Assembly (NCBI GenBank): GCA_020073005.1
Contig: JAIQFX010000010.1
Span: 1-64,000, forward strand
From: Terriglobia bacterium
GTDB lineage: Bacteria > Acidobacteriota > Vicinamibacteria > Vicinamibacterales > CAVVIG01
DNA: 64,000 nucleotides
Reading direction: 5' to 3'
Shown here: positions 13,155-23,652 of the stretch, one piece after another
Layout: each line of letters opens with the position of its first letter
Numbering within the stretch: position 1 is the stretch's first letter
Notes under the pieces: model-generated
Seen by the model: the letters and a program-made list of their open reading frames with translations, nothing else
Database searches by the model: none
What the model was told of the DNA's origin: nothing
Position numbers and translations under genes: made by a program

Positions 13155-14369
13155 TTACTGCGCGGCGCGCATGGCTCTCGCGGACGTGCCCGGCGAGCCC
13201 GGCGCGGTGGTGATCGCCCTGATCATGAACACGCGATGCGCGAACGCGAGCGGCCCCGCCTGCGGGATGTCGCCGCGCTCCCACGCGTGCTGGTACGACG
13301 CTTCGATCGAGAGCCAGCGAGTCAGCGCTCTGGTTGCCGCGACGTCGACGAGATAGACGGTCGCGTCCAGGCCCGATACGTGCGCGGCGTCGTGGCTGAT
13401 GCCCGGGCCCGCGCGAAGCTCGAGCCGCCGCGTCGGGCGCACGGTTGCGCTGGCGGTCAGCCGCTCGACTTCAATCGTGCCCGCTTCTCCGAGCGCGACG
13501 GTTTCCGTCCGCTCGACGCTCACGGCCACGTCGCCGGACTTCAGCCGGCGATGAATGTCGGCGGTGAGCTCGGGGCGGACCGCGCCGCCGGAGAATCGCG
13601 GGCCGGCCATGACGGTCGCGCGCGTCAGCGCGGACAGCTCGCGCGTCCACCCGGCCAGCATCGCGCGTGACGTGCCGTTGCCGAGGGCGATCGAGTCCGG
13701 GCTCGCGTCGTTCGTCGGCAAACCGCCGAACGCGAACTGCTGTTCGCGGTATTGCGCGTGCGCGACGTCGGTCGCCGACAGATGCCGGTCGAGGCCGAAT
13801 GTGAACGTGCGCGTGACGATCGACGGCGCGACGCCGGCGAGCGCCGCGCCCGGCGCCGCTTCGGAGAACGCGCTGCGCGCGAACTCGAACTGCACCGACG
13901 CGCGCGTCCGCGCGCTGAGGTCATACGTCATCGACGGCGTCACGGTGAACTGCGTCGCCGGCGCGCGCTGGACGTTCAGGCCCGTCAGCTCGTTGAACTC
14001 CTGCGGCATGTGGGTGGTCAGGTACGACGCCGACGTCGCGAACGTCGCGGTCCGTCCGGCGTGGTAGCGCAGGCTCAGATCCGCCTGCTGGCGGGCGAGC
14101 GCATCGTCGAGAGCCGGATGATCGCGGTACTGCTCGGCGTCGAACGTGTAGCGGCCCGTCAGCTGCAGCGGCGCCGATCGATAGCCGGCGCGGAGGGCCG
14201 GGCTCGTGCGGAGCACGACGTCGGATTCGGCCGACGACTGCGACGAGAAGACGTTGGAATCCGCGACCTCGGCGACCGACAGCGAGGGAATCACGTACGT
14301 CATGCCCTGCGCCCGCGCGGCCGCGGGGACCATCGCCAGCAGGATCGCCAGCAGCGGTGTCGCGTTCAT
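13155..14369 (-). CDS. Outer-membrane beta-barrel protein of the exopolysaccharide operon
   Basis: A 404-residue secreted protein: signal peptide (LLAILLAMVPAAARAQG), then a long series of amphipathic strands with alternating residues, for example LQLTGRYTFDAEQYRD, ADLSLRYHAGRTATFATSASYLT and LRAGPGISHD. Barrels of this kind in exosortase-type or Wzx/Wzy polysaccharide loci are thought to help secretion through the outer membrane (EpsL-like role by position). The start 14369 makes an ATGA overlap with the NusG-like gene. The C-terminus does not end in the usual aromatic residue. Sequence conservation is low, so the role rests on location. Confidence 0.78.
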   Translation of the reverse strand: MNATPLLAILLAMVPAAARAQGMTYVIPSLSVAEVADSNVFSSQSSAESDVVLRTSPALRAGYRSAPLQLTGRYTFDAEQYRDHPALDDALARQQADLSLRYHAGRTATFATSASYLTTHMPQEFNELTGLNVQRAPATQFTVTPSMTYDLSARTRASVQFEFARSAFSEAAPGAALAGVAPSIVTRTFTFGLDRHLSATDVAHAQYREQQFAFGGLPTNDASPDSIALGNGTSRAMLAGWTRELSALTRATVMAGPRFSGGAVRPELTADIHRRLKSGDVAVSVERTETVALGEAGTIEVERLTASATVRPTRRLELRAGPGISHDAAHVSGLDATVYLVDVAATRALTRWLSIEASYQHAWERGDIPQAGPLAFAHRVFMIRAITTAPGSPGTSARAMRAAQ

Positions 14370-14911
14370 GATGTCGAGATGGGCGCGACGTCGGTGCAGT
14401 CGACGACGACCGCCACGCTCTGCTGCAGCAGGTCGACGGAAATCACGAACAGCCCTTTGTCCGGCTGCGTGCGCACCAGGATGCCCTCGACGCCGATCAG
14501 CGGGCCGTGCGTCACGCGGACGCGCCGGCCGACGCGCACGAACGCGTGCGGCATCACGGGCAGGTTGGCGGCGAGGAGGTTCTGGATCGCCTCGATCTGC
14601 GCGTCCGGGATCGGCGCCAGCCGGTCCCAGCCTTCGCCGAGGATGCGCACCAGGCCGCGCGCCTTGCGCACCTCGACGTGCGACGACTTGTCCATCGCGT
14701 GGCGGAGGAACAGATAGCCGGGGAACATCGGAAGACTGACGAGGTGCCGCGCGCCGCCGCGCCGCGACCACACGTTGACGGTCGGGAGAAAGAGCTCGAA
14801 GCCGCGGGCCGAGAGCTGATCGTGCACGAGCCGCTCGGCGTGGCTGCGGGTCCAGAGCGCGTACCAGTGTTCCCGTGCAGCGCCGGCCACGTGCTGTGCG
14901 GACTCGACCAT
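14366..14911 (-). CDS. NusG-family specialised antiterminator (RfaH/UpxY/LoaP type)
   Basis: About 181 residues with an NGN domain (HWYALWTRSHAERLVHDQL, RGFELFLPTV, LFPGYLF-like LPMFPGYLFLRH, VRILGEG) and a C-terminal KOW domain (VRVTHGPLIGVEGILVR). Paralogues of NusG placed first in long polysaccharide operons travel with RNA polymerase and suppress termination inside that operon, so self-regulation of the 14.6-kb unit is likely. ATG 14911 is chosen; a TTG at 14923 with AAAGGGG about 8 bases upstream is the alternative. It is not the housekeeping NusG, which normally sits beside ribosomal-protein genes. Confidence 0.9.
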   Translation of the reverse strand: MVESAQHVAGAAREHWYALWTRSHAERLVHDQLSARGFELFLPTVNVWSRRGGARHLVSLPMFPGYLFLRHAMDKSSHVEVRKARGLVRILGEGWDRLAPIPDAQIEAIQNLLAANLPVMPHAFVRVGRRVRVTHGPLIGVEGILVRTQPDKGLFVISVDLLQQSVAVVVDCTDVAPISTS

Positions 14912-15171
14912 CGTCTCCAGCAAGGCTTCGCCCCTTTCGGTTGCCGCGGCGTCATCGGCCGCGGAACCGGCAACCTGTCGACACGAACCGGGAAACCGCC
15001 GCCCGGAGCCTCGAGCGACGTGCTGCCCGATGACGCGCTTACGGTACGACGCGCGGAAGGCGCCGCCAATTCGGGTGATCCCGGTGATCCAGCGGAGAAA
15101 ACCTAGCGGCGGGCGCAGGCAAATCCTGAAGACGATCGTCCGAGGGGGCGATCTGCCTCGAGTTGCTCCCT

Positions 15172-15177
15172 TATAAT
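15172..15177 (+). promoter_or_regulatory. Possible -10 element before the permease genes
   Basis: The bases TATAAT stand out in a G/C-rich gap and lie 22 bases before the GTG chosen for the permease gene. No convincing TTGACA-like -35 is 16-18 bases upstream, so this is only a weak promoter call. The 250-base gap 14924-15171 also has to hold the promoter of the divergent exopolysaccharide operon; I found no clear element for it. Confidence 0.35.
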
Positions 15178-15198
15178 GTGCGCGACTCGGACCCCGAG

Positions 15199-16164
15199 GT
15201 GAAGGCCACGTTCCTCGTCGCGCGCGTCCTGAACTCGCTGTTCGTCATGGCGCTGGTCGCGCTCGTGACGTTTCTCCTGATCGATCTGGCCCCGGGCAAT
15301 TACCTCGACGAGCTGGCGTCGAACCCGCAGATCTCACGGGCGACCCTTGATCGCGTTCGCGACCAGTACGGACTCGGTCAGCCGTTCTACGTCAAGTTCT
15401 GGCGATGGGGCCGGAGCCTCGCGGCCGGTGACCTCGGCGATTCCTTCGTCTATCAGCGCCCGGTCCGTCAACTGCTCGCCGAACGGCTCGGGAACACGTT
15501 GCTCCTGAATCTCGCGGCGCTCGCGTTTGCCTGGCTTGCGGGCGTGGCCCTCGGCCTTGCCGCGGCCGCTCGACGAGGCTCGGCGCTCGACTGGATCATC
15601 CGTGCGATCACGACCGCCTTGCTGTCGACGCCAGCCGTCGTCGTCGCGATCGTGCTGCTCGCCTGCGCCGCGCAGCTCGGTTTGCCGATCGGCGGCGTGT
15701 CCGCGACGGCCCGCCCGTCCGCCGACGGCGCCCGCCATGTCCTCGACCTCGCGCGCCATCTGATGCTTCCGGCGCTGGCGGTCGCGGCGGCGTGGCTGCC
15801 GGCGATCGCCCAACACACCCGCGCGGCGATCGGGTCGGCGCTTGATGCGCCGCACATGCTTGCCGCGCGCGCGCGGGGGATCGGTCGCGTTCGTCTGGTC
15901 ATGGTCCACGCGACGCGTGAGGCGCTCAGCCCGTTGATCGGCTTTCTGGGTCTGTCGGTGTCGGGGCTGGTGAGCGCATCGCTCATCGTCGAGGTCGTCA
16001 TGGCGTGGCCGGGGATCGGCTCGCTCGCGTACGAAGCCGTGCTGAGGCGCGACATCTTTCTCGTCGTCGATCTCGTTCAGTTCTCCGCACTCTTCCTGCT
16101 GGTGGGCAACACGATCGGCGACGTGCTGCTGAGTCTCGCCGATCCACGAGTCACCCACGCATGA
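15199..16164 (+). CDS. Dpp/Opp-type ABC transporter permease, first subunit
   Basis: A 321-residue inner-membrane protein of the DppB/OppB type with six predicted helices. Supporting features are the N-terminal LLIDLAPGNYLDEL, the RDQYGLGQPFYVKFWRW block, and the EAA loop where the cytoplasmic ATPase docks (ARARGIGRVRLVMVHATREAL), followed by VSASLIVEVVMAWPGIGSL. Together with the next gene it would form the membrane channel of a peptide or related solute importer. The start is set at GTG 15199; a TTG at 15163 would place the TATAAT inside the coding region. No ATPase gene is in the window, so energy must come from one encoded elsewhere. Confidence 0.88.
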   Translation: MKATFLVARVLNSLFVMALVALVTFLLIDLAPGNYLDELASNPQISRATLDRVRDQYGLGQPFYVKFWRWGRSLAAGDLGDSFVYQRPVRQLLAERLGNTLLLNLAALAFAWLAGVALGLAAAARRGSALDWIIRAITTALLSTPAVVVAIVLLACAAQLGLPIGGVSATARPSADGARHVLDLARHLMLPALAVAAAWLPAIAQHTRAAIGSALDAPHMLAARARGIGRVRLVMVHATREALSPLIGFLGLSVSGLVSASLIVEVVMAWPGIGSLAYEAVLRRDIFLVVDLVQFSALFLLVGNTIGDVLLSLADPRVTHA

Positions 16165-17147
16165 GGAAGGTCCGTCTCGCGGCATGGATCTTCCTGGCAT
16201 TCATCGGCGTGATTGCCATCCTTCCGGATTTCTTCTCGCCGTATTCGCCCAGCCATCAATATCGGGACTTCCCCTACGCGCCACCGGGCCGCTATCACGG
16301 CGCGTCAGTGCACTGGTTCGTGCACGGGGAGCCGTACAGATGGCTCGGGCTCGTGCCCGCCTCCGTTCGCCTGTTCGGCTCACCGGAGCCAGGACGCCTG
16401 TTCGTGCTCGGCACCGACGAGTTCGGCCGCGACGCGTTCTCCCGGCTGTGCCACGGCGCCTCGGTGTCGCTGCTTCTGGCGCCGATGGCCGCGCTGCTGT
16501 CGATCGCGCTGGCGGTCGTGTTCGGCGCGTGGGCGGGCATGTGTCGTGGCGTGGTCGACGTATGTGTCACGCGCATCAGCGAAGCGTTCGTCGTCCTGCC
16601 GTGGTTCTACGTGGTGGTCGCGCTTCGTGCGGCGCTCCCGTTGTCGCTGGGCGGACCGACGGCCGTGTTGATCGTGTTTGCGCTCCTGGCTGCGCTCGGG
16701 TGCGCGACGCCAAGCCGCCTGTTCCGCGGACTTGTGCTCTCACTGGCGCATCGCGAATTCGTGCTGGCGGCGCGCGCCACCGGGGCCAGCCGCAGCCGGG
16801 TGCTGAGCCGTCACATCCTTCCGTTCCTCTGGCCGGCCATACGGACGCAACTGTTGATGAGCATTCCTGTTTTCATCATCACCGAGGTGACCCTGTCGTT
16901 TCTTGGTCTCGGTGTCGCAGATCCGATGCCGACGTGGGGCGGAATGCTCGTACCGCTGCAGCAGTACGTCGTCCTCACGTCCTATCCGTGGATGTGGATG
17001 CCGGCCGTGGCCATTGTGAGCGTGTGCCTCGCGCTGCAGATCGTCGCCCGCGAATCGGGCGATCCCTCGTCCGTGCTCTCGACGCCGGCGTCCTGGCAGG
17101 CGAACTACGCGGAATCGGCGCCGATCAGAATGAACGGCGCCCAGTAG
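16161..17147 (+). CDS. Dpp/Opp-type ABC transporter permease, second subunit
   Basis: A 328-residue DppC/OppC-like permease. It has a single leading helix (IFLAFIGVIAILPDFF), a periplasmic insert of about 60 residues, the LGTDEFGRDAFSRLCHGASVSL block that is the DppC hallmark, the EAA loop (AARATGASRSRVLSRHILP) and the final FIITEVTLSFLGLGV...PTWGGML segment. The start makes an ATGA overlap with the first permease. The 3' end overlaps the last 43 bases of the CHAT gene, which is on the other strand. The matching binding protein is probably the one encoded at 19957-21663 on the opposite strand. Confidence 0.9.
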   Translation: MRKVRLAAWIFLAFIGVIAILPDFFSPYSPSHQYRDFPYAPPGRYHGASVHWFVHGEPYRWLGLVPASVRLFGSPEPGRLFVLGTDEFGRDAFSRLCHGASVSLLLAPMAALLSIALAVVFGAWAGMCRGVVDVCVTRISEAFVVLPWFYVVVALRAALPLSLGGPTAVLIVFALLAALGCATPSRLFRGLVLSLAHREFVLAARATGASRSRVLSRHILPFLWPAIRTQLLMSIPVFIITEVTLSFLGLGVADPMPTWGGMLVPLQQYVVLTSYPWMWMPAVAIVSVCLALQIVARESGDPSSVLSTPASWQANYAESAPIRMNGAQ

Positions 17148-19960
17148 TACGGATGGTCGTATTCGCGACGAAGCTCCGCCGTCGCCGCCCGAAGCGCGGC
17201 CGCCTTTCCGAGCCCGGCTTCGATACCACGGTAGAAGAATTTCATGAACTCGGCCGTGCTTCGGTCGTGAACGTCCCAGAGCGTGACCAGCAGCGATCGC
17301 GCGCCCGCCGCGAGCAGCCCCCACGTGAGACCGCGCAGCTCGTCGCCATCCGCCACGACGCTCAGTCCCGTGCCGCAGCCGCTGAGCGTCACGAGATCGA
17401 CGGGAAGCGGAAGACTGGAGATGTCGTACAGCGTGAGGTACGAATCGCCCAGGCGCACGCCGGAAAAGAGCGGGTTGTCTTCGCGGAAGTATCCGTGCGT
17501 GGCGATGTGCACGATGCGGCGGCCGGGGCCCAGGGCCCGCAGCGTGCCGATCGACGCGTCCGCGCCGATGCGCGCCTCCACATGGGGCAGCAGATTCGCG
17601 ACGGCCCGCACTTCGTCGAGGATGAACGGTGCGCGGCCGTCCGGCACGCCGAGGACCAGCGAGCCGTTCCCATGCGGCGCCGATCGCTGGCCACAGAGCG
17701 CGTAGATGCTCGCGCTCGGCGCATACGACAGGTCGGTCGTGTCGGCCACGTATGAATGGCCGTCATACAGCGCGTGAAACGGCACGGAGTGCAGGAGATC
17801 ATGAGGGACGATGACGACGGGGCGGCCGCGCTCGAGCGGGAGCGGCGCGAGCAGCTCCTGATACAACTCGTACAGATGCACCTGCGTGGCGTCGCAGGCG
17901 GACGCGCCGACGCGATCCAGATCGAATTGGAATCTCGAGAGGTGAAACTGCAGCATGCGAAGCGGGCGCCTGACGCGTGAAACCGTTGTCAGCGGTATCA
18001 CCTTCAGATCGTCGCGCGTCAGGAGCACGGCGAGAATGCGATCGCCCGTTCTGAAATACTCGACGAGCGTCGTCTCGGGTTTCAACGTGGCCCGTATCGC
18101 GTCGGGCGTCGCGGCGGCGGCGTCCCGAAGGCCGATCGACGTCCGGTCGCCCGGCGGCATCTCGCGCAGCACCTTGATGAAGGCGTGCTCCCGCCGCCGC
18201 AGTTCCGCCTGCAGGCTCTCGAGGCGCTTCACCGATCGGTCGTCGCGGTTGAGCTGTTCGCGCTCGATGCGGTGGTGGTACCAGTTGAGTTCTTCACGCA
18301 GCGTCCGGATCGGCCGGGCCATCTCGCGCTGCCCGGCGCCGAGCAACGGCATCGGATGGACGCGCTCGAAGAACGCGTCGCGCAGACTCCGCGACTTCGC
18401 ATCCTCGACGTAGCCGAAGATTTCGACGGCCGCGCGCTGCTGATTCGCGTGGTGCAGGCACAGATCGACGAGCCGCTCGTACACGGCCGCTTTCCCGGTC
18501 ATGAACGCGATCTTGAGATCCTCGCCGCAGAGGACGCTGCGCTGCGACTCCAGCCAGTCCCGCGCGGCGCGATACGACGCATAGGCGTCCGCCGGTTTGT
18601 TGGAGGCTTCCTCGATTTGTCCCAGCAGGAAGTGAGCCTCGTGCGCGAGCACCGGCGCCTCGCTCTCGTCGATTCGTGCCAGCGCGCTCCGGCAGTGCGC
18701 GACCGCGTCCGACACCGCGTAGGTCCGCAGCGCGATGCGCGCCAGGAGCAGTTCGCAGATCGCCTCCTTCCGGCGGAGCCCCAGCGTGCGGAAGGCCGCG
18801 AGCGCCGCCAGCGCGAGCTGTCGCGCCTCGACATGCCGTCCCTCGTTCGCGAGCAGGACCGCCTGATACAGATCGATGACGGACGGCCATGCCGCGTTGT
18901 GCTCGCGCTCGAACTGCGCGCGAGCCTGTCCGAGCAGCTCCAGCGCTCGCAGCGGCTCGCCCTGGCGGCTGAGGGCGATCGCCAGGTTCGTCTGCGCCCG
19001 CGCCGTCTCGTACGCGTTGCCGAGGCGCTCGAAGATTGCCTGCGCGTCCCGCGCCATCTCCGCGGCCTCGTCGCGAAGATCCAGCTCGAGGTAGATCTCG
19101 GCCTGGTCGAGGTTGCACAGGGCGGCATGGTACAAATCCCCGGCCGCCGAGCAGGCCACGCGCGCCACGCGGAGCATGTCGAGCGCGCGGTTGTAGTCGC
19201 CGCGGAAGAAGTGCAGATACGCGATGTTGTAGTCGGCCTGGGCGACGAGGGCCTTCATGCCCGCGCGATCGCAGTGCGCGCGCGCGCGCTCGTACGTGGC
19301 GACGGCGCGCTCGAAATCGTTGAGGGCGATGAGGCACACGGCCATGTTGTGCAGCGAGACGCCGATCCCTTCCGCATCGTCGAACGGGATCAGCCGCTCG
19401 AGCGCGCGCTCGTAGCGTTCGAGCGCCTCGGCGAAACGGTCCTGGCGATGCAGAATGTTGGCGACGTTGATCTCGAGGCGCGCCAGCCGGTGGTCGTCGC
19501 CGAGTGCTGTGAAGATCTTCTCCGCCCGCTTCGCCGCGTCCAGGGCCTGCGCGTATCGGCCGAGCAGAAGCTGCGCCTTGATGGACGAGCTGAGCGTGCG
19601 GCCGAGCTCGACGAGGTTGCCGCTTCGCTCGAACAGCCGCGCAGCCTCGTCGAACAGACCGACAGCCGGCCTCAGCTCGTTGCGGAACCGGAGCGCGTTC
19701 GCCTTTGCCCGCAGCGCGCGCGCCATCGCATCGTCGCTCAACACGCGCCGCGCGGCCACGATGGCGGCCTCTGAAAGCGCGGCCGCCTCGTTCACGTCCA
19801 CGTGCACGCGCTCGCGGACCGCGTCCGCCAGCTGCTCGACGATCGACGCATGGATGAATCGCGGATGCGTCCTGAAGAATCGCCTGCGGCTCGCCGCGTC
19901 GGAAAGGCGGGCCAGCTCTTCGACAGATGCGGGACTCAGCCGGGGCGCCGGGGCGCTCAT
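17105..19960 (-). CDS. TPR-repeat protein with C-terminal CHAT protease-like domain
   Basis: A 951-residue cytoplasmic-looking protein with no signal peptide. About residues 60-560 are tetratricopeptide repeats of the A-x2-Y-x2-A type (for example GRYAQALDAAKRAEKIFTAL, RFAEALERYERALERLIP). A basic helical linker (LREELNWYHHRIEREQLNR) leads to a CHAT domain from about 650. The caspase-like dyad is intact: His822 in HIATHGYF and Cys862 in LSGCGTG. CHAT proteases act as regulated proteases, as in Craspase or TPR-CHAT defence, or as separase-like enzymes; the substrate here is unknown. Its start overlaps the stop of the peptide-binding protein gene (ATGA), and it ends the subtilase operon. Confidence 0.9.
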   Translation of the reverse strand: MSAPAPRLSPASVEELARLSDAASRRRFFRTHPRFIHASIVEQLADAVRERVHVDVNEAAALSEAAIVAARRVLSDDAMARALRAKANALRFRNELRPAVGLFDEAARLFERSGNLVELGRTLSSSIKAQLLLGRYAQALDAAKRAEKIFTALGDDHRLARLEINVANILHRQDRFAEALERYERALERLIPFDDAEGIGVSLHNMAVCLIALNDFERAVATYERARAHCDRAGMKALVAQADYNIAYLHFFRGDYNRALDMLRVARVACSAAGDLYHAALCNLDQAEIYLELDLRDEAAEMARDAQAIFERLGNAYETARAQTNLAIALSRQGEPLRALELLGQARAQFEREHNAAWPSVIDLYQAVLLANEGRHVEARQLALAALAAFRTLGLRRKEAICELLLARIALRTYAVSDAVAHCRSALARIDESEAPVLAHEAHFLLGQIEEASNKPADAYASYRAARDWLESQRSVLCGEDLKIAFMTGKAAVYERLVDLCLHHANQQRAAVEIFGYVEDAKSRSLRDAFFERVHPMPLLGAGQREMARPIRTLREELNWYHHRIEREQLNRDDRSVKRLESLQAELRRREHAFIKVLREMPPGDRTSIGLRDAAAATPDAIRATLKPETTLVEYFRTGDRILAVLLTRDDLKVIPLTTVSRVRRPLRMLQFHLSRFQFDLDRVGASACDATQVHLYELYQELLAPLPLERGRPVVIVPHDLLHSVPFHALYDGHSYVADTTDLSYAPSASIYALCGQRSAPHGNGSLVLGVPDGRAPFILDEVRAVANLLPHVEARIGADASIGTLRALGPGRRIVHIATHGYFREDNPLFSGVRLGDSYLTLYDISSLPLPVDLVTLSGCGTGLSVVADGDELRGLTWGLLAAGARSLLVTLWDVHDRSTAEFMKFFYRGIEAGLGKAAALRAATAELRREYDHPYYWAPFILIGADSA

Positions 19961-21663
19961 CGCTGAGGCCTCTGCCAGAACCAGCGGTCGGCGTTCCAGA
20001 GCAGGACCGGTTCGAGCGCGGCCGGCTCGAAGTTGCCGAGATCGCGAGCGGCGGCCGCCAGCACGTGCGGGCTCGCGAGAAAAATCATCGGCAGATTCGC
20101 CGAGACGACCTGCTGCACCCGATCGTACGCCGCCTTGCGCGCCGCAAACGCGGTCGTCGTCATCTGCACGCTCATGAGCCGGTCGACTTCTCGTTCCCAG
20201 GGCTCGAGCGCAGTCGTGCCGGTCGACGCGGTCTTGCTCGTCGACGCGTTCATGTTCCAGACGTGCAGCGTGCCTCCGCTGGTCCACACGTTCATCTCCG
20301 CGTTGGGATCGGCGTCGCCGCTCGCGATGCCCCAGATCGCCGCTTCGAACTTGCGCGTCTTGAGGACGGCGTCGAGGAGCGCGCCGAACTCCATCGGCTC
20401 CACGCGAACTCGGATACCCACCCGGGCGAGATCTTCCTGGATGAGCGTCGCCATCTTCCGCCTGGGCTGATTGCTCGCCGACACCATCAACGGGAACTCG
20501 ACCGGATGCCCATCGCGATCCGCGAGCGCCCCCGCCTCGTTTCGCCGGAAGCCGGCCTCCCGGAGCAGCGCGTCCGCGCGAGCCGGGTCGTACGGATAGT
20601 CGGTCAGCGTGTGAGCGCGCCACAGGCGATTGCCCGGCGTCACCTGCGAGGAAATCGGCGACGCCATGCCGTGATAGACGAGACGCACGATCGCATCGCG
20701 GTCGATGGCGTGGGCGACGGCCTGGCGGAATGTCAGCGATCGAAACCACTTCGCGGACGGGGAAGAGGCGTCCCAGTTGAAGAAGAGGAAGTTGTATTCG
20801 AAGCCCGCGCCGGCGTCGCGCGCATTCAGAAACGGCGCCTGGGCAAGCCGCGCGAAATCGTCGGGCCGCAGGCGTCCGGCCGCCGAGACCTCGTGCGTCA
20901 ACAGGCGCAGCAACTGGGCGTTCTGATCGGCGACGAACTCGATTTCCAGCCGATCGAGATACGGCAGGGGCTTCCCGGCCTCATCTCGCTTCCAGTAGTA
21001 CGGATTGCGCTCCAGCACCACCCGCTGGCCGGGCACGTATTGCTTCAGGCGAAACGGGCCGGCGGTTGCGACGGACTCGGCAGGGGAGCTGGAGGTCCAG
21101 GCCTGCGCGAAGGTTCCCTGCGTGTACGCGCGCTCGAGCTCGTGCTTCGGCAGAATCCAGAACGAGTCGAACAAGCGGTCGCCGGGTGCGTACGGCGCCG
21201 GCAGATCGAAGCGAACCGTCAGCGGCGCGACCTTGACGACGGTGATTGGCACGCCGTCGATCCTCAGCAGGTCGCCCTGCGGCGAGTTCACACGCGGATC
21301 GGAGTACACCGCAAACGTGAACGCGACGTCGTCCGCCGTGAGTGGAGCGCCGTCAGAGAACCGCAGGCCGTCGCGCAGCGTGACCGTGTAATGGAGGCCG
21401 TCGGGCGACGCCTCGCAGCGGCGCGCCAGCGCCAGCTCCGGCTGCAGCGTCTGCCGATTGATGTGCACGAGATCGGCGGACATGACCGACAGGACGTCGC
21501 GCGTCGGCTGATCGGTCGCCGTCACTGGATTGAACGTCCTCGGCTCGCTCGTCTGCGCGACGACGAGCGTACCGCCAGTTTCTCCGCGCGTCGGCGCCGC
21601 ACCGAATGCGCCGACCCCGGACACGGCGACGAGCAACGCCACGGGCATCGATAATCTGTGCAT
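19957..21663 (-). CDS. Peptide/nickel-type ABC transporter substrate-binding protein (SBP_bac_5)
   Basis: A secreted binding protein of about 568 residues. It has a signal peptide (PVALLVAVSGVGAF), the entry segment GGTLVVAQTSEPRTFNPVTA, then GLHYTVTLRDGLRFSDGAPLTADDVAF, GPFRLKQYVPGQRVVLERNPYYW and a late FRRNEAGALADRDGHPVEFPL block, which are typical of cluster C (DppA/OppA) proteins. There is no lipobox cysteine. ATG 21663 is used; a GTG at 21672 is possible. It is translationally coupled to the CHAT gene and lies 38-47 bases after the subtilase gene, a suggestive arrangement for peptide capture after proteolysis. The permeases are on the facing strand. Confidence 0.92.
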   Translation of the reverse strand: MHRLSMPVALLVAVSGVGAFGAAPTRGETGGTLVVAQTSEPRTFNPVTATDQPTRDVLSVMSADLVHINRQTLQPELALARRCEASPDGLHYTVTLRDGLRFSDGAPLTADDVAFTFAVYSDPRVNSPQGDLLRIDGVPITVVKVAPLTVRFDLPAPYAPGDRLFDSFWILPKHELERAYTQGTFAQAWTSSSPAESVATAGPFRLKQYVPGQRVVLERNPYYWKRDEAGKPLPYLDRLEIEFVADQNAQLLRLLTHEVSAAGRLRPDDFARLAQAPFLNARDAGAGFEYNFLFFNWDASSPSAKWFRSLTFRQAVAHAIDRDAIVRLVYHGMASPISSQVTPGNRLWRAHTLTDYPYDPARADALLREAGFRRNEAGALADRDGHPVEFPLMVSASNQPRRKMATLIQEDLARVGIRVRVEPMEFGALLDAVLKTRKFEAAIWGIASGDADPNAEMNVWTSGGTLHVWNMNASTSKTASTGTTALEPWEREVDRLMSVQMTTTAFAARKAAYDRVQQVVSANLPMIFLASPHVLAAAARDLGNFEPAALEPVLLWNADRWFWQRPQR

Positions 21664-21709
21664 CGGGATCACACGGTCACAGATGCCGCGAACCTCACGC
21701 TGATCCGTC

Positions 21710-23020
21710 TTACTGCAATCCGAGCGCCTGCCGCCACGCCGCCACTGCCTGGTAGAGATCGAGCCGGCCGTTCCCCATGTCGCTCGAGAGGAATTTCGCG
21801 TGGGCGATCGCCTGCGCCGCAGCCGACTGGTTGGCGCTGGCGCTCACATCCAGCAGCAGCGACGCGGCGCCGGCCACGAACGGCGCGCTGAACGACGTCC
21901 CCGACGACGCGGCGTACGTACCCCACGGATACGTGGACACAATCCACTCGCCCGGGGCCGCGACCCAGACCTGCGGCTGGCCGTAATTGGAGAACGACGA
22001 GCGCGCATCGGCGTCGCTCGTCGACGCCACGCCCATCACATCGGCGGCATACGCGGCTGGATAGACCGCCACCTCCTGCCCGTCGTTGCCGGCGGCCGCG
22101 ACGGCGATCACGTTGTTCCGGTTCGCGTACTGAAGCGCGTTGCGGAACTCCGGCGACGCCGTCGCGAAGCTGAAGCTCATGTTCAGCACCTGGGCGTTGG
22201 CCCGGACCGCAAAGTAGATGGCGCGGATGGCGTCAGATGTGTACCCGGTGCCGTCCGGACCGAAGGCCTTGAGCGGCAGAATCCACGCCCTCGGCGCCAC
22301 CAGATGGACGATGCCCGCCACCATCGTGCCGTGGCCGAAGGCCGAATAACTCGTCGTATCGACGACATCCGCCGTCGACTGGTCGATGACCGCCATCGTC
22401 GACGCGTTGACGTACGTCGGGCCGACGCCGTCGACGACGTCCGCCGTCGATTGCTGCACGTCGCCGGTTTCGTCCGCCCCATTCCTGTTGCGGGTGAAGT
22501 CGTAGCCAGGCAACAGGACCGGCTGCAGCACCGGCTGATTGGGATCGACGCCGGTGTCGATGACGGCGACGATGCCGGACCCGGCCACCTGGAAGCTGCG
22601 CTGCGCGTCCGCCACGCGGACGATCTGACTGGCGGGCTGATTCACATAGCCGTCCGACACGGTCGTGCCGTAGTAGGGCACGGGCGTCGTATCTGTCAGG
22701 GCCGGCGGCGCCGACGGGCTCGTGCTCTGGAGGATGGAGCCTGTCAAATCCAATTCAACGGCGACGACGCCCGGTTCAAGACTCAATGTCGTGAGGAAGA
22801 TGCTCGGACTGGGGCTGCTGGTCGTGATGAGAAAGACCTGTCCGTCCGGATCTCCCAGCCCGTAGTTGACCGTGCAGTCCAGGAGCGCGCAGAGACTCTG
22901 GATGACCGGCAATCCTCCGGTGACGCGCACGATGACGCGCGTGCCGGCTGCCTGCGCATGCGATGAGGACAGCGCGAGGATCAGCGCCAGGGAGAGCAGA
23001 AGACGAGCGGCTCGTTTCAT
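21710..23020 (-). CDS. Secreted subtilisin-like serine protease (S8 family)
   Basis: A 436-residue protein with a signal peptide (LLLSLALILALSSSHAQA), a propeptide-like first 130 residues and an S8 domain with an intact triad: Asp155 in AVIDTGVDP, His230 in FGHGTMVAG and Ser376 in SGTSFSAP; the oxyanion Asn is in AAAGNDG. Between Asp and His an 8-residue stretch, QSTADVVD, occurs twice (190-197 and 214-221), which is unusual. It begins with an ATGA overlap with the preceding unknown gene. It is predicted to act outside the cytoplasm on protein substrates. Confidence 0.94.
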   Translation of the reverse strand: MKRAARLLLSLALILALSSSHAQAAGTRVIVRVTGGLPVIQSLCALLDCTVNYGLGDPDGQVFLITTSSPSPSIFLTTLSLEPGVVAVELDLTGSILQSTSPSAPPALTDTTPVPYYGTTVSDGYVNQPASQIVRVADAQRSFQVAGSGIVAVIDTGVDPNQPVLQPVLLPGYDFTRNRNGADETGDVQQSTADVVDGVGPTYVNASTMAVIDQSTADVVDTTSYSAFGHGTMVAGIVHLVAPRAWILPLKAFGPDGTGYTSDAIRAIYFAVRANAQVLNMSFSFATASPEFRNALQYANRNNVIAVAAAGNDGQEVAVYPAAYAADVMGVASTSDADARSSFSNYGQPQVWVAAPGEWIVSTYPWGTYAASSGTSFSAPFVAGAASLLLDVSASANQSAAAQAIAHAKFLSSDMGNGRLDLYQAVAAWRQALGLQ

Positions 23021-23652
23021 GACGGTACCGTTGTCAAATCTCGCAGTCTGACGACCACGCGGCCCTGCGACACCGCAAATGTCAGCGACAAATCGGACAC
23101 CGGGCCGCCGAACTCCAGGTCGAACTCACCGAGCTGATTGGTGACGGCGCGAGCGATGGCCTGCGTGTCGCGCTCGAGCAGAACGCGCGCGCCGTCCACA
23201 TGAGGATTCGGATGTTGCGGCGAGGTAATCTGTCCCAGCATCACCGTCTCGTCTCGCAGGTGTCCCGACGATTGCACCTGCAAATCGATCAGATAGTCGT
23301 CACTCGCATACACGAGCTTGTGCGCGCCCGGCTTCGTCGCGCGCAGTCCGACGGGCACTGCCGCGACCTGGCTGTCGAAGAGAAGCCGGGCGTACTGGAT
23401 CACGCGCGAGAACCGATCGGGGGCCTTCCGCACGCTTTCCGCCTCAGCGAACGCTTTCTCTATCGCTTCTTCTGGTGTCTCGCCGTTGTGCCAATGAAGG
23501 CGCGGGTGGTTCGCAATCACATCACCCGTCGAACGGCCGACGATTTGGGCCACGCACGCGACATAGAGATACTCGTCCCTGGGATTGCGAATCCGATCGA
23601 CTTCAATCAGGTACTTGTATTCGCCACTTGCGCTGTCGCGGGCCTCAAACAT
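23017..23652 (-). CDS. Unknown protein, first gene of the subtilase-CHAT operon
   Basis: About 211 residues, soluble, no signal peptide. I do not recognise a named domain. The first third reads like a short alpha/beta stretch (EYLYVACVAQIVGR...EEAIEKAFAEAESV), followed by LLFDSQVAAVPVGLRA and a C-terminal beta-rich part (YLIDLQVQS...VMLGQITSP...NQLGEFDLEF) that resembles the Ig-like or carboxypeptidase-regulatory tail seen next to CHAT and S8 genes in soil bacteria. ATG 23652 is used; an in-frame start at 23733 would add 27 residues. Overlaps the subtilase start by four bases, so the two are coupled. It may be a regulator or anti-sigma-like scaffold, but that is only a guess. Confidence 0.7.
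   Translation of the reverse strand: MFEARDSASGEYKYLIEVDRIRNPRDEYLYVACVAQIVGRSTGDVIANHPRLHWHNGETPEEAIEKAFAEAESVRKAPDRFSRVIQYARLLFDSQVAAVPVGLRATKPGAHKLVYASDDYLIDLQVQSSGHLRDETVMLGQITSPQHPNPHVDGARVLLERDTQAIARAVTNQLGEFDLEFGGPVSDLSLTFAVSQGRVVVRLRDLTTVPS

Follow-up and report, generated by a model that had tools for sequence, protein, structure and literature searches.

A repeated octapeptide in an Acidobacteriota operon subtilase and its possible role in peptide signalling to a TPR-CHAT protease

Related systems and the window locus

RRNPPA systems (Rap-Phr, NprR-NprX, PlcR-PapR) mediate peptide quorum sensing in Firmicutes. With the exception of Rap, their receptors combine a TPR superhelix with an N-terminal HTH DNA-binding domain. 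The receptors read peptides imported through Opp, and some of the propeptides contain up to six identical copies of the pheromone (PMC9765709). The Craspase protease Csx29 cleaves Csx30, which inhibits an ECF-like sigma factor (PMC10028731).

The operon type to which the window locus belongs shares features with both. Like RRNPPA systems it has a secreted precursor, Opp genes and a putative TPR receptor whose TPR profile matches RapF. It differs in that a subtilase whose active site is intact takes the place of the small propeptide, the proposed receptor is a CHAT protease, the proposed output is an ECF sigma factor and the hosts are Acidobacteriota. No HTH was detected in the TPR-CHAT protein by Pfam, and no gene for a small secreted propeptide lies beside the receptor gene; the octapeptide in question is found only inside the subtilase. 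As in CASP/Craspase, a TPR-CHAT protein, a sigma inhibitor and an ECF-like sigma factor are encoded together, but the inhibitor is of the classical zinc-finger anti-sigma type, with no established likeness to Csx30, and a peptide importer and an octapeptide-bearing subtilase are added. None of the conserved operon genes encodes a CRISPR effector, and the NCBIfam Csx29 model scores the CHAT protein of our locus at 35 bits against a cut-off of 300. The sigma and anti-sigma proteins resemble ECF/zinc-finger anti-sigma pairs (RsiW, RslA, ChrR) in their Sigma70 r2 and r4 regions and HxxxCxxC N-terminus, and depart from them in a soluble-looking C-terminal beta domain and in their proposed control by a cytoplasmic CHAT protease. 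The subtilase has the fold and Asp/His/Ser triad of subtilisin family S8, from which it is set apart by its repeated octapeptides, located at the prodomain junction and within a segment inserted between the catalytic Asp and His. A search of an open-access library of papers found no description of an octapeptide-subtilase/CHAT system. The parts belong to known families; their arrangement, and the repeated signal peptide within a protease, match no system found in the papers searched, whichever mechanism is right. The original prediction for this DNA had likewise not recognised the combination as described. It missed the octapeptides, the absence of a sigma gene and the anti-sigma kinship of the unknown protein; given the octapeptide repeats, the system is much more unusual than was stated there.

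The window, meaning the whole stretch analysed, comprises 64,000 nt of Terriglobia bacterium contig JAIQFX010000010.1 (GCA_020073005.1), positions 1-64,000. On its plus strand, a DppB/OppB-like ABC permease gene (15163..16164; BPD_transp_1 E=5e-30), which heads the operon in most relatives, overlaps by 4 nt a DppC/OppC-like permease gene (16161..17147; BPD_transp_1 E=6e-16). The 3′ end of the latter overlaps the 3′ end of a convergent minus-strand gene for a 951 aa TPR-CHAT protease (17105..19960; CHAT E=5e-59, plus TPRs), in which the CHAT domain (17117-17872) carries the catalytic residues His822 and Cys862. Three further minus-strand genes encode a 571 aa family-5 oligopeptide-type solute-binding protein (19957..21672; SBP_bac_5 E=1e-83) with AppA as its closest solved relative, a 436 aa subtilase (21710..23020; Peptidase_S8 E=4e-35) and a 211 aa anti-sigma-related protein (23017..23652), which retains a conserved C-terminal beta domain at about residues 78-208. 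An N-terminal hydrophobic signal in the subtilase is followed by a prodomain and by the triad Asp155/His230/Ser376. Overlaps of 4 nt (ATGA) join the anti-sigma relative to the subtilase gene and the binding protein to the CHAT gene, and a 37-nt gap separates the subtilase and binding-protein genes. This confirms the original prediction on the four minus-strand genes with their expected domains, both ATGA overlaps, two intact protease active sites, and permeases converging on the CHAT gene from the opposite strand. The His822/Cys862 dyad is invariant in all 33 aligned TPR-CHAT relatives. The 5.86 Mb source genome (G000) has four CHAT genes in total, the other three being L001, L002 and L004.

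A full Opp/Dpp operon comprises a binding protein, two permeases and two ATPases; since this cluster has only the first three, the importer ATPases must come from elsewhere. The original prediction had suggested looking for co-occurrence of an ATPase pair, which is absent from the cluster; the only OppD/OppF-type pair of the genome lies on another contig (C106), where the surrounding ~8 kb hold neither an Opp permease nor a binding protein. Two side observations concern this part of the window. ARAGORN calls a tRNA-Asp at 15303-15396 (minus strand), antisense within the DppB-like gene, which is probably a false positive, and at 13155-14923 (minus strand) a gene for an UpxY/RfaH-like antiterminator beside a PEP-CTERM-associated beta-barrel protein suggests an adjoining exopolysaccharide locus.

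A seven-gene operon in Acidobacteriota

Separate searches of 40 relatives with the 211 aa protein and with the binding protein led to the same contigs in three genomes (G012, G022, G011). These read permease, permease, binding protein, a gap, CHAT, a relative of the 211 aa protein and subtilase, the G012 contig starting within the binding protein and that of G011 stopping at the subtilase. In relatives, the gap between binding protein and CHAT holds a gene for an ECF-type sigma factor (Sigma70_r2 and Sigma70_r4). When an alignment of this sigma factor was used to scan 84,980 prokaryote species genomes, 80 loci were found, all but one of the records being Acidobacteriota. Same-strand neighbours included CHAT at 71 loci, the binding protein at 67, the anti-sigma relative at 59 and the subtilase at 53, counts that are lowered by the truncation of many loci at contig ends. 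The full order is permease, permease, binding protein, ECF sigma, TPR-CHAT, zinc-finger anti-sigma, subtilase; all seven genes are present in 38 loci, and 37 of these share one order. In a sample of 297 Acidobacteriota genomes taken across the phylum, 25 contain the sigma factor at E<1e-40. More distant operons are ordered sigma, anti-sigma, CHAT, subtilase, which is the classical sigma/anti-sigma neighbourhood. One operon (L133) lies in a MAG named Anaerolineae, reflecting either horizontal transfer or mis-binning.

The gene set thus recurs in distant genomes and the linkage is not due to chance; far from being scattered in relatives, which would have told against the original prediction, the genes form a conserved operon. 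Ordinary peptide uptake with unrelated neighbours is ruled out by the conserved gene order. We also considered a defence system and rejected it, as PADLOC gave only generic subtilase models. A search upstream of the permease genes for an ECF promoter common to the operons gave only GC-rich dyads, slightly above shuffles.

The protein listed as unknown in the original prediction is the product of a real gene and can now be identified as an anti-sigma relative. Its family profile matches the anti-sigma factors RsiW (E=1.7e-4) and RslA (4e-3) at the N-terminus, and 77 of 89 relatives have an N-terminal zinc finger of HxxxCxxC type. In a structural model (pLDDT 90), four helices make up the N-terminal part and a beta domain comes after them. 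ChrR is among the structural matches of the model N-terminus, at a high rmsd that makes the match weak by itself; for the C-terminal domain, only common beta-sandwich folds were matched, and Csx30 is not among the matches listed. Both Sigma70 regions and the HxxxCxxC motif are thus present in relatives and missing from the window, where the alignment of the protein with the family starts at about residue 78; the 77 residues before that point are unrelated to the family and contain no HxxxCxxC finger. The window is not unique in this respect, since two more anti-sigma-domain proteins (L105:7672-8310 and L141:4481-5062) are also without the finger.

Octapeptide repeats in the operon subtilases

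Nearly all subtilases of the main operon type carry 2-15 copies of a single octapeptide with the template QSTxxILD. At least two exact copies were counted in 60 of 62 subtilases, and shuffled proteins never exceeded one; for two of the 62, L069 and L106, the automatic procedure had counted a low-complexity repeat instead, and their octapeptides, QSTVAILD and QEAAVFLE, were read from the sequences. There are 33 distinct forms, among them QSTVAILD, QSTTSILD, QSTGVILD, QETTPILD, QHTAAMLD, QSTSTVLE and QSTVSLLN, and every one of them ends in D, E or N. In the window subtilase, two copies of QSTADVVD (22430..22453 and 22358..22381, minus strand) differ by 3 synonymous substitutions and flank a diverged third octapeptide, ASTMAVID (22382..22405, minus strand); in L029, the nearest relative, all three copies read QSTAAVVD. 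QSTADVVD is confined to the subtilase across the whole source genome, ruling out a separate pheromone gene, and no octapeptide copies were found in other genes of the loci.

Copies are identical within one protein and differ in sequence between operons. None of 408 identical copy pairs shares the same DNA, with a mean of 4.7 of 24 nt different, and it follows that the copies are old and have been kept identical by selection at the protein level. Recent tandem duplication is excluded as the source of the repeats by the same count. Between operons, the octapeptide changes in concert. The unit is 8 residues long: identity between copies drops to ~0.25 just outside it, and while identity inside the unit is given by construction of the count, near-copies are nonetheless rare (214 exact copies versus 13 with 1-2 mismatches).

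The repeats occupy defined positions. All 64 subtilases with repeats hold copies in the Asp-His insert and none has copies after the catalytic His; 31 also have copies before the catalytic Asp, in 30 cases 52-57 residues ahead of it. A model of the L104 subtilase adopts a pro-subtilisin fold (Z ~40) with the mature part starting at about residue 119, which places the upstream copies within the segment linking prodomain to mature enzyme. In this model, that linker and the Asp-His insert have pLDDT values of 58-71, versus >90 for the core, as would be expected of exposed, cleavable segments. Distant operons have the same design at the prodomain junction only (QTSQAFID x3, QRSQAFID x2, QISHAFLD x2 and PRTIVFID x2). 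In a subtilase at L084:10042-11976 (L084 and L183 being one locus), QSTGAILD occurs 15 times, mostly outside the usual Asp-His insert. Repeats are present in 50 of 53 operons with a binding protein in the fetched stretch versus 10 of 20 without (Fisher p=5e-5), an association that is supportive only, because the operons share ancestry. Repeats also occur at five loci that have no Opp module nearby (L071, L072, L105, L188 and L189). The subtilases of L123 and L142 have no repeats and their anti-sigma proteins no zinc ligands, possibly a linked loss.

The octapeptide is operon-specific. Tandem subtilases of one operon, with 60-75% catalytic identity, carry the same octapeptide in seven of seven cases, versus agreement in 3.5% of random operon pairs. 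In one Terriglobia MAG (L074:1-20549), two complete operons adjoin and have different octapeptides, QSTVSLLN x11 and QSTVAFLD, and might form two separate channels. Over 41 non-redundant operons, octapeptide distance correlates best with that of the TPR region (r=0.52, Mantel p<0.0005, and 0.49 as a partial correlation controlling for sigma and subtilase), followed by the CHAT domain and the subtilase prodomain (both 0.41), the binding protein (0.33), the middle region of TPR-CHAT (0.23), sigma (0.17) and the subtilase catalytic domain (0.16); the values for sigma and binding protein are lowered by untrimmed ORF leaders. The fairest comparison is that of TPR and middle regions within one protein, where the TPR value is higher by 0.29 (bootstrap 0.16-0.41). 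Column-level covariation between octapeptide and TPR is diffuse, with no localised signal, and the highest mean column covariation falls at residues 821-880, near the catalytic Cys of CHAT.

A possible imported-peptide circuit and its alternatives

The TPR profile matches TPRs known to bind peptides in extended form, those of LGN, kinesin light chain (KLC) and RapF, and the CHAT domain matches Craspase TPR-CHAT (E=4e-8). Because the operon joins the logic of RRNPPA systems with that of Craspase, we propose a chain running from peptide release through import, TPR and CHAT to anti-sigma and sigma. The subtilase would be exported and the octapeptide freed from the prodomain linker and the Asp-His insert, a release that calls for cleavage after Asp or Glu by some protease. 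Import of the octapeptide would then fall to the Opp-type binding protein with its permeases, driven by an ATPase pair encoded elsewhere, and binding of the octapeptide to the TPR domain of TPR-CHAT would activate the cysteine protease. CHAT may in turn cut the cytoplasmic zinc-finger anti-sigma protein and free the ECF sigma factor, as with Csx29/Csx30 of type III-E CRISPR. Octapeptide release, import, TPR binding and anti-sigma cleavage are all steps that we infer. The octapeptide looks like a cell-to-cell or self-sensing signal. Several observations weigh against the chain: the repeats at five loci lacking a nearby Opp module, the correlations of octapeptide distance with CHAT domain and subtilase prodomain, the diffuse column-level covariation, the negative promoter search, the protease that release would require, and the loss of sigma gene and zinc finger in the window copy with its fast-evolving anti-sigma domain. 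On balance we lean towards reading the seven-gene Acidobacteriota operon, of which the window gene set is a derived copy, as an imported-peptide signalling circuit. The original prediction, in which outside proteolysis supplies peptides to an importer and an internal CHAT protease responds, is partly supported, right in outline and incomplete: conservation of the operon, CHAT gene included, upholds the link, but what is taken up is probably one specific octapeptide from within the subtilase sequence, not the products of digestion at large, and in relatives an ECF sigma/anti-sigma pair makes up the response arm.

Two other roles for the octapeptide were weighed. It could be a recognition or cleavage site for CHAT in the subtilase precursor, with CHAT controlling the subtilase and no imported signal. 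The invariable D, E or N at its end, reminiscent of a caspase- or legumain-like P1 residue, would suit such a site, as would the location of copies at the prodomain junction, the correlation of octapeptide with CHAT-domain distance (r=0.41) and the covariation peak at 821-880. Covariation with the TPR region is no weaker, however, and neither the Opp genes nor the presence of up to 15 copies is explained. Moreover, the subtilases have Sec-type signals and CHAT does not, so that the two could meet only before export. We regard a CHAT site as unlikely. Still less probable, in our estimation, is a role within the subtilase itself, self-inhibitory or structural, with Opp importing general digestion products in a sigma-controlled programme of protein scavenging. 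An Opp system and a secreted protease fit nutrition, and the repeats are confined to the subtilase, yet octapeptide distance barely tracks the catalytic domain of that enzyme (0.16) while tracking the TPR of another protein (0.52), and 2-15 copies of near-perfect identity are unlike a structural loop.

A separate question is whether the window copy still functions. In L029, its closest relative (65% identity in CHAT, 70% in the subtilase and 73% in the binding protein), the subtilase carries QSTAAVVD in three identical copies. Compared with that operon, the window copy has lost both sigma gene and zinc finger; its anti-sigma and subtilase genes have moved ahead of the binding protein, and the block is inverted against the permeases. 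No orthologous sigma factor was found elsewhere in the source genome, where the best match scores 76 bits versus 240-355 for orthologues. The locus could therefore be a decaying remnant without function, a reading compatible with any account of the intact operons and favoured by the loss of the sigma gene and zinc finger and by the diverged third octapeptide. The CHAT gene is also absent from the two other genomes of the genus that were examined. Against decay, the reading frames are all intact with tight 4-nt overlaps, the two QSTADVVD copies are identical despite 3 synonymous differences, and dN/dS relative to L029 is 0.23-0.35 for the binding protein, subtilase and CHAT, which on these values look to be under purifying selection, the fast-evolving anti-sigma domain less so (35% identity, dN/dS 0.58). 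Complete loss of function is in our view rather doubtful, and the window copy is best seen as a member of the seven-gene operon type that has either been rewired or begun to decay. Returning to the signalling circuit, the window lineage would have kept the peptide-to-CHAT arm; with the sigma gene and zinc finger gone, that arm would need another substrate as its output, and the output may have been redirected accordingly.

We put at about even the chance that these operons represent a new class of bacterial peptide communication, in which a secreted protease, its active site intact, doubles as the multi-copy precursor of an octapeptide that, once imported, activates TPR-CHAT and thereby brings about the destruction of an anti-sigma factor. 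If so, peptide signalling would extend beyond the known Firmicutes families into Acidobacteriota, among the most common and the hardest to handle of soil phyla, and the 33 octapeptide forms would be operon-specific dialects that predict who responds to whom. The operon would also present the CHAT/anti-sigma/ECF logic of Craspase in the absence of CRISPR, and with it a testable idea on the origin of that module, while some lineages, the window included, would have kept the receptor arm and redirected its output.
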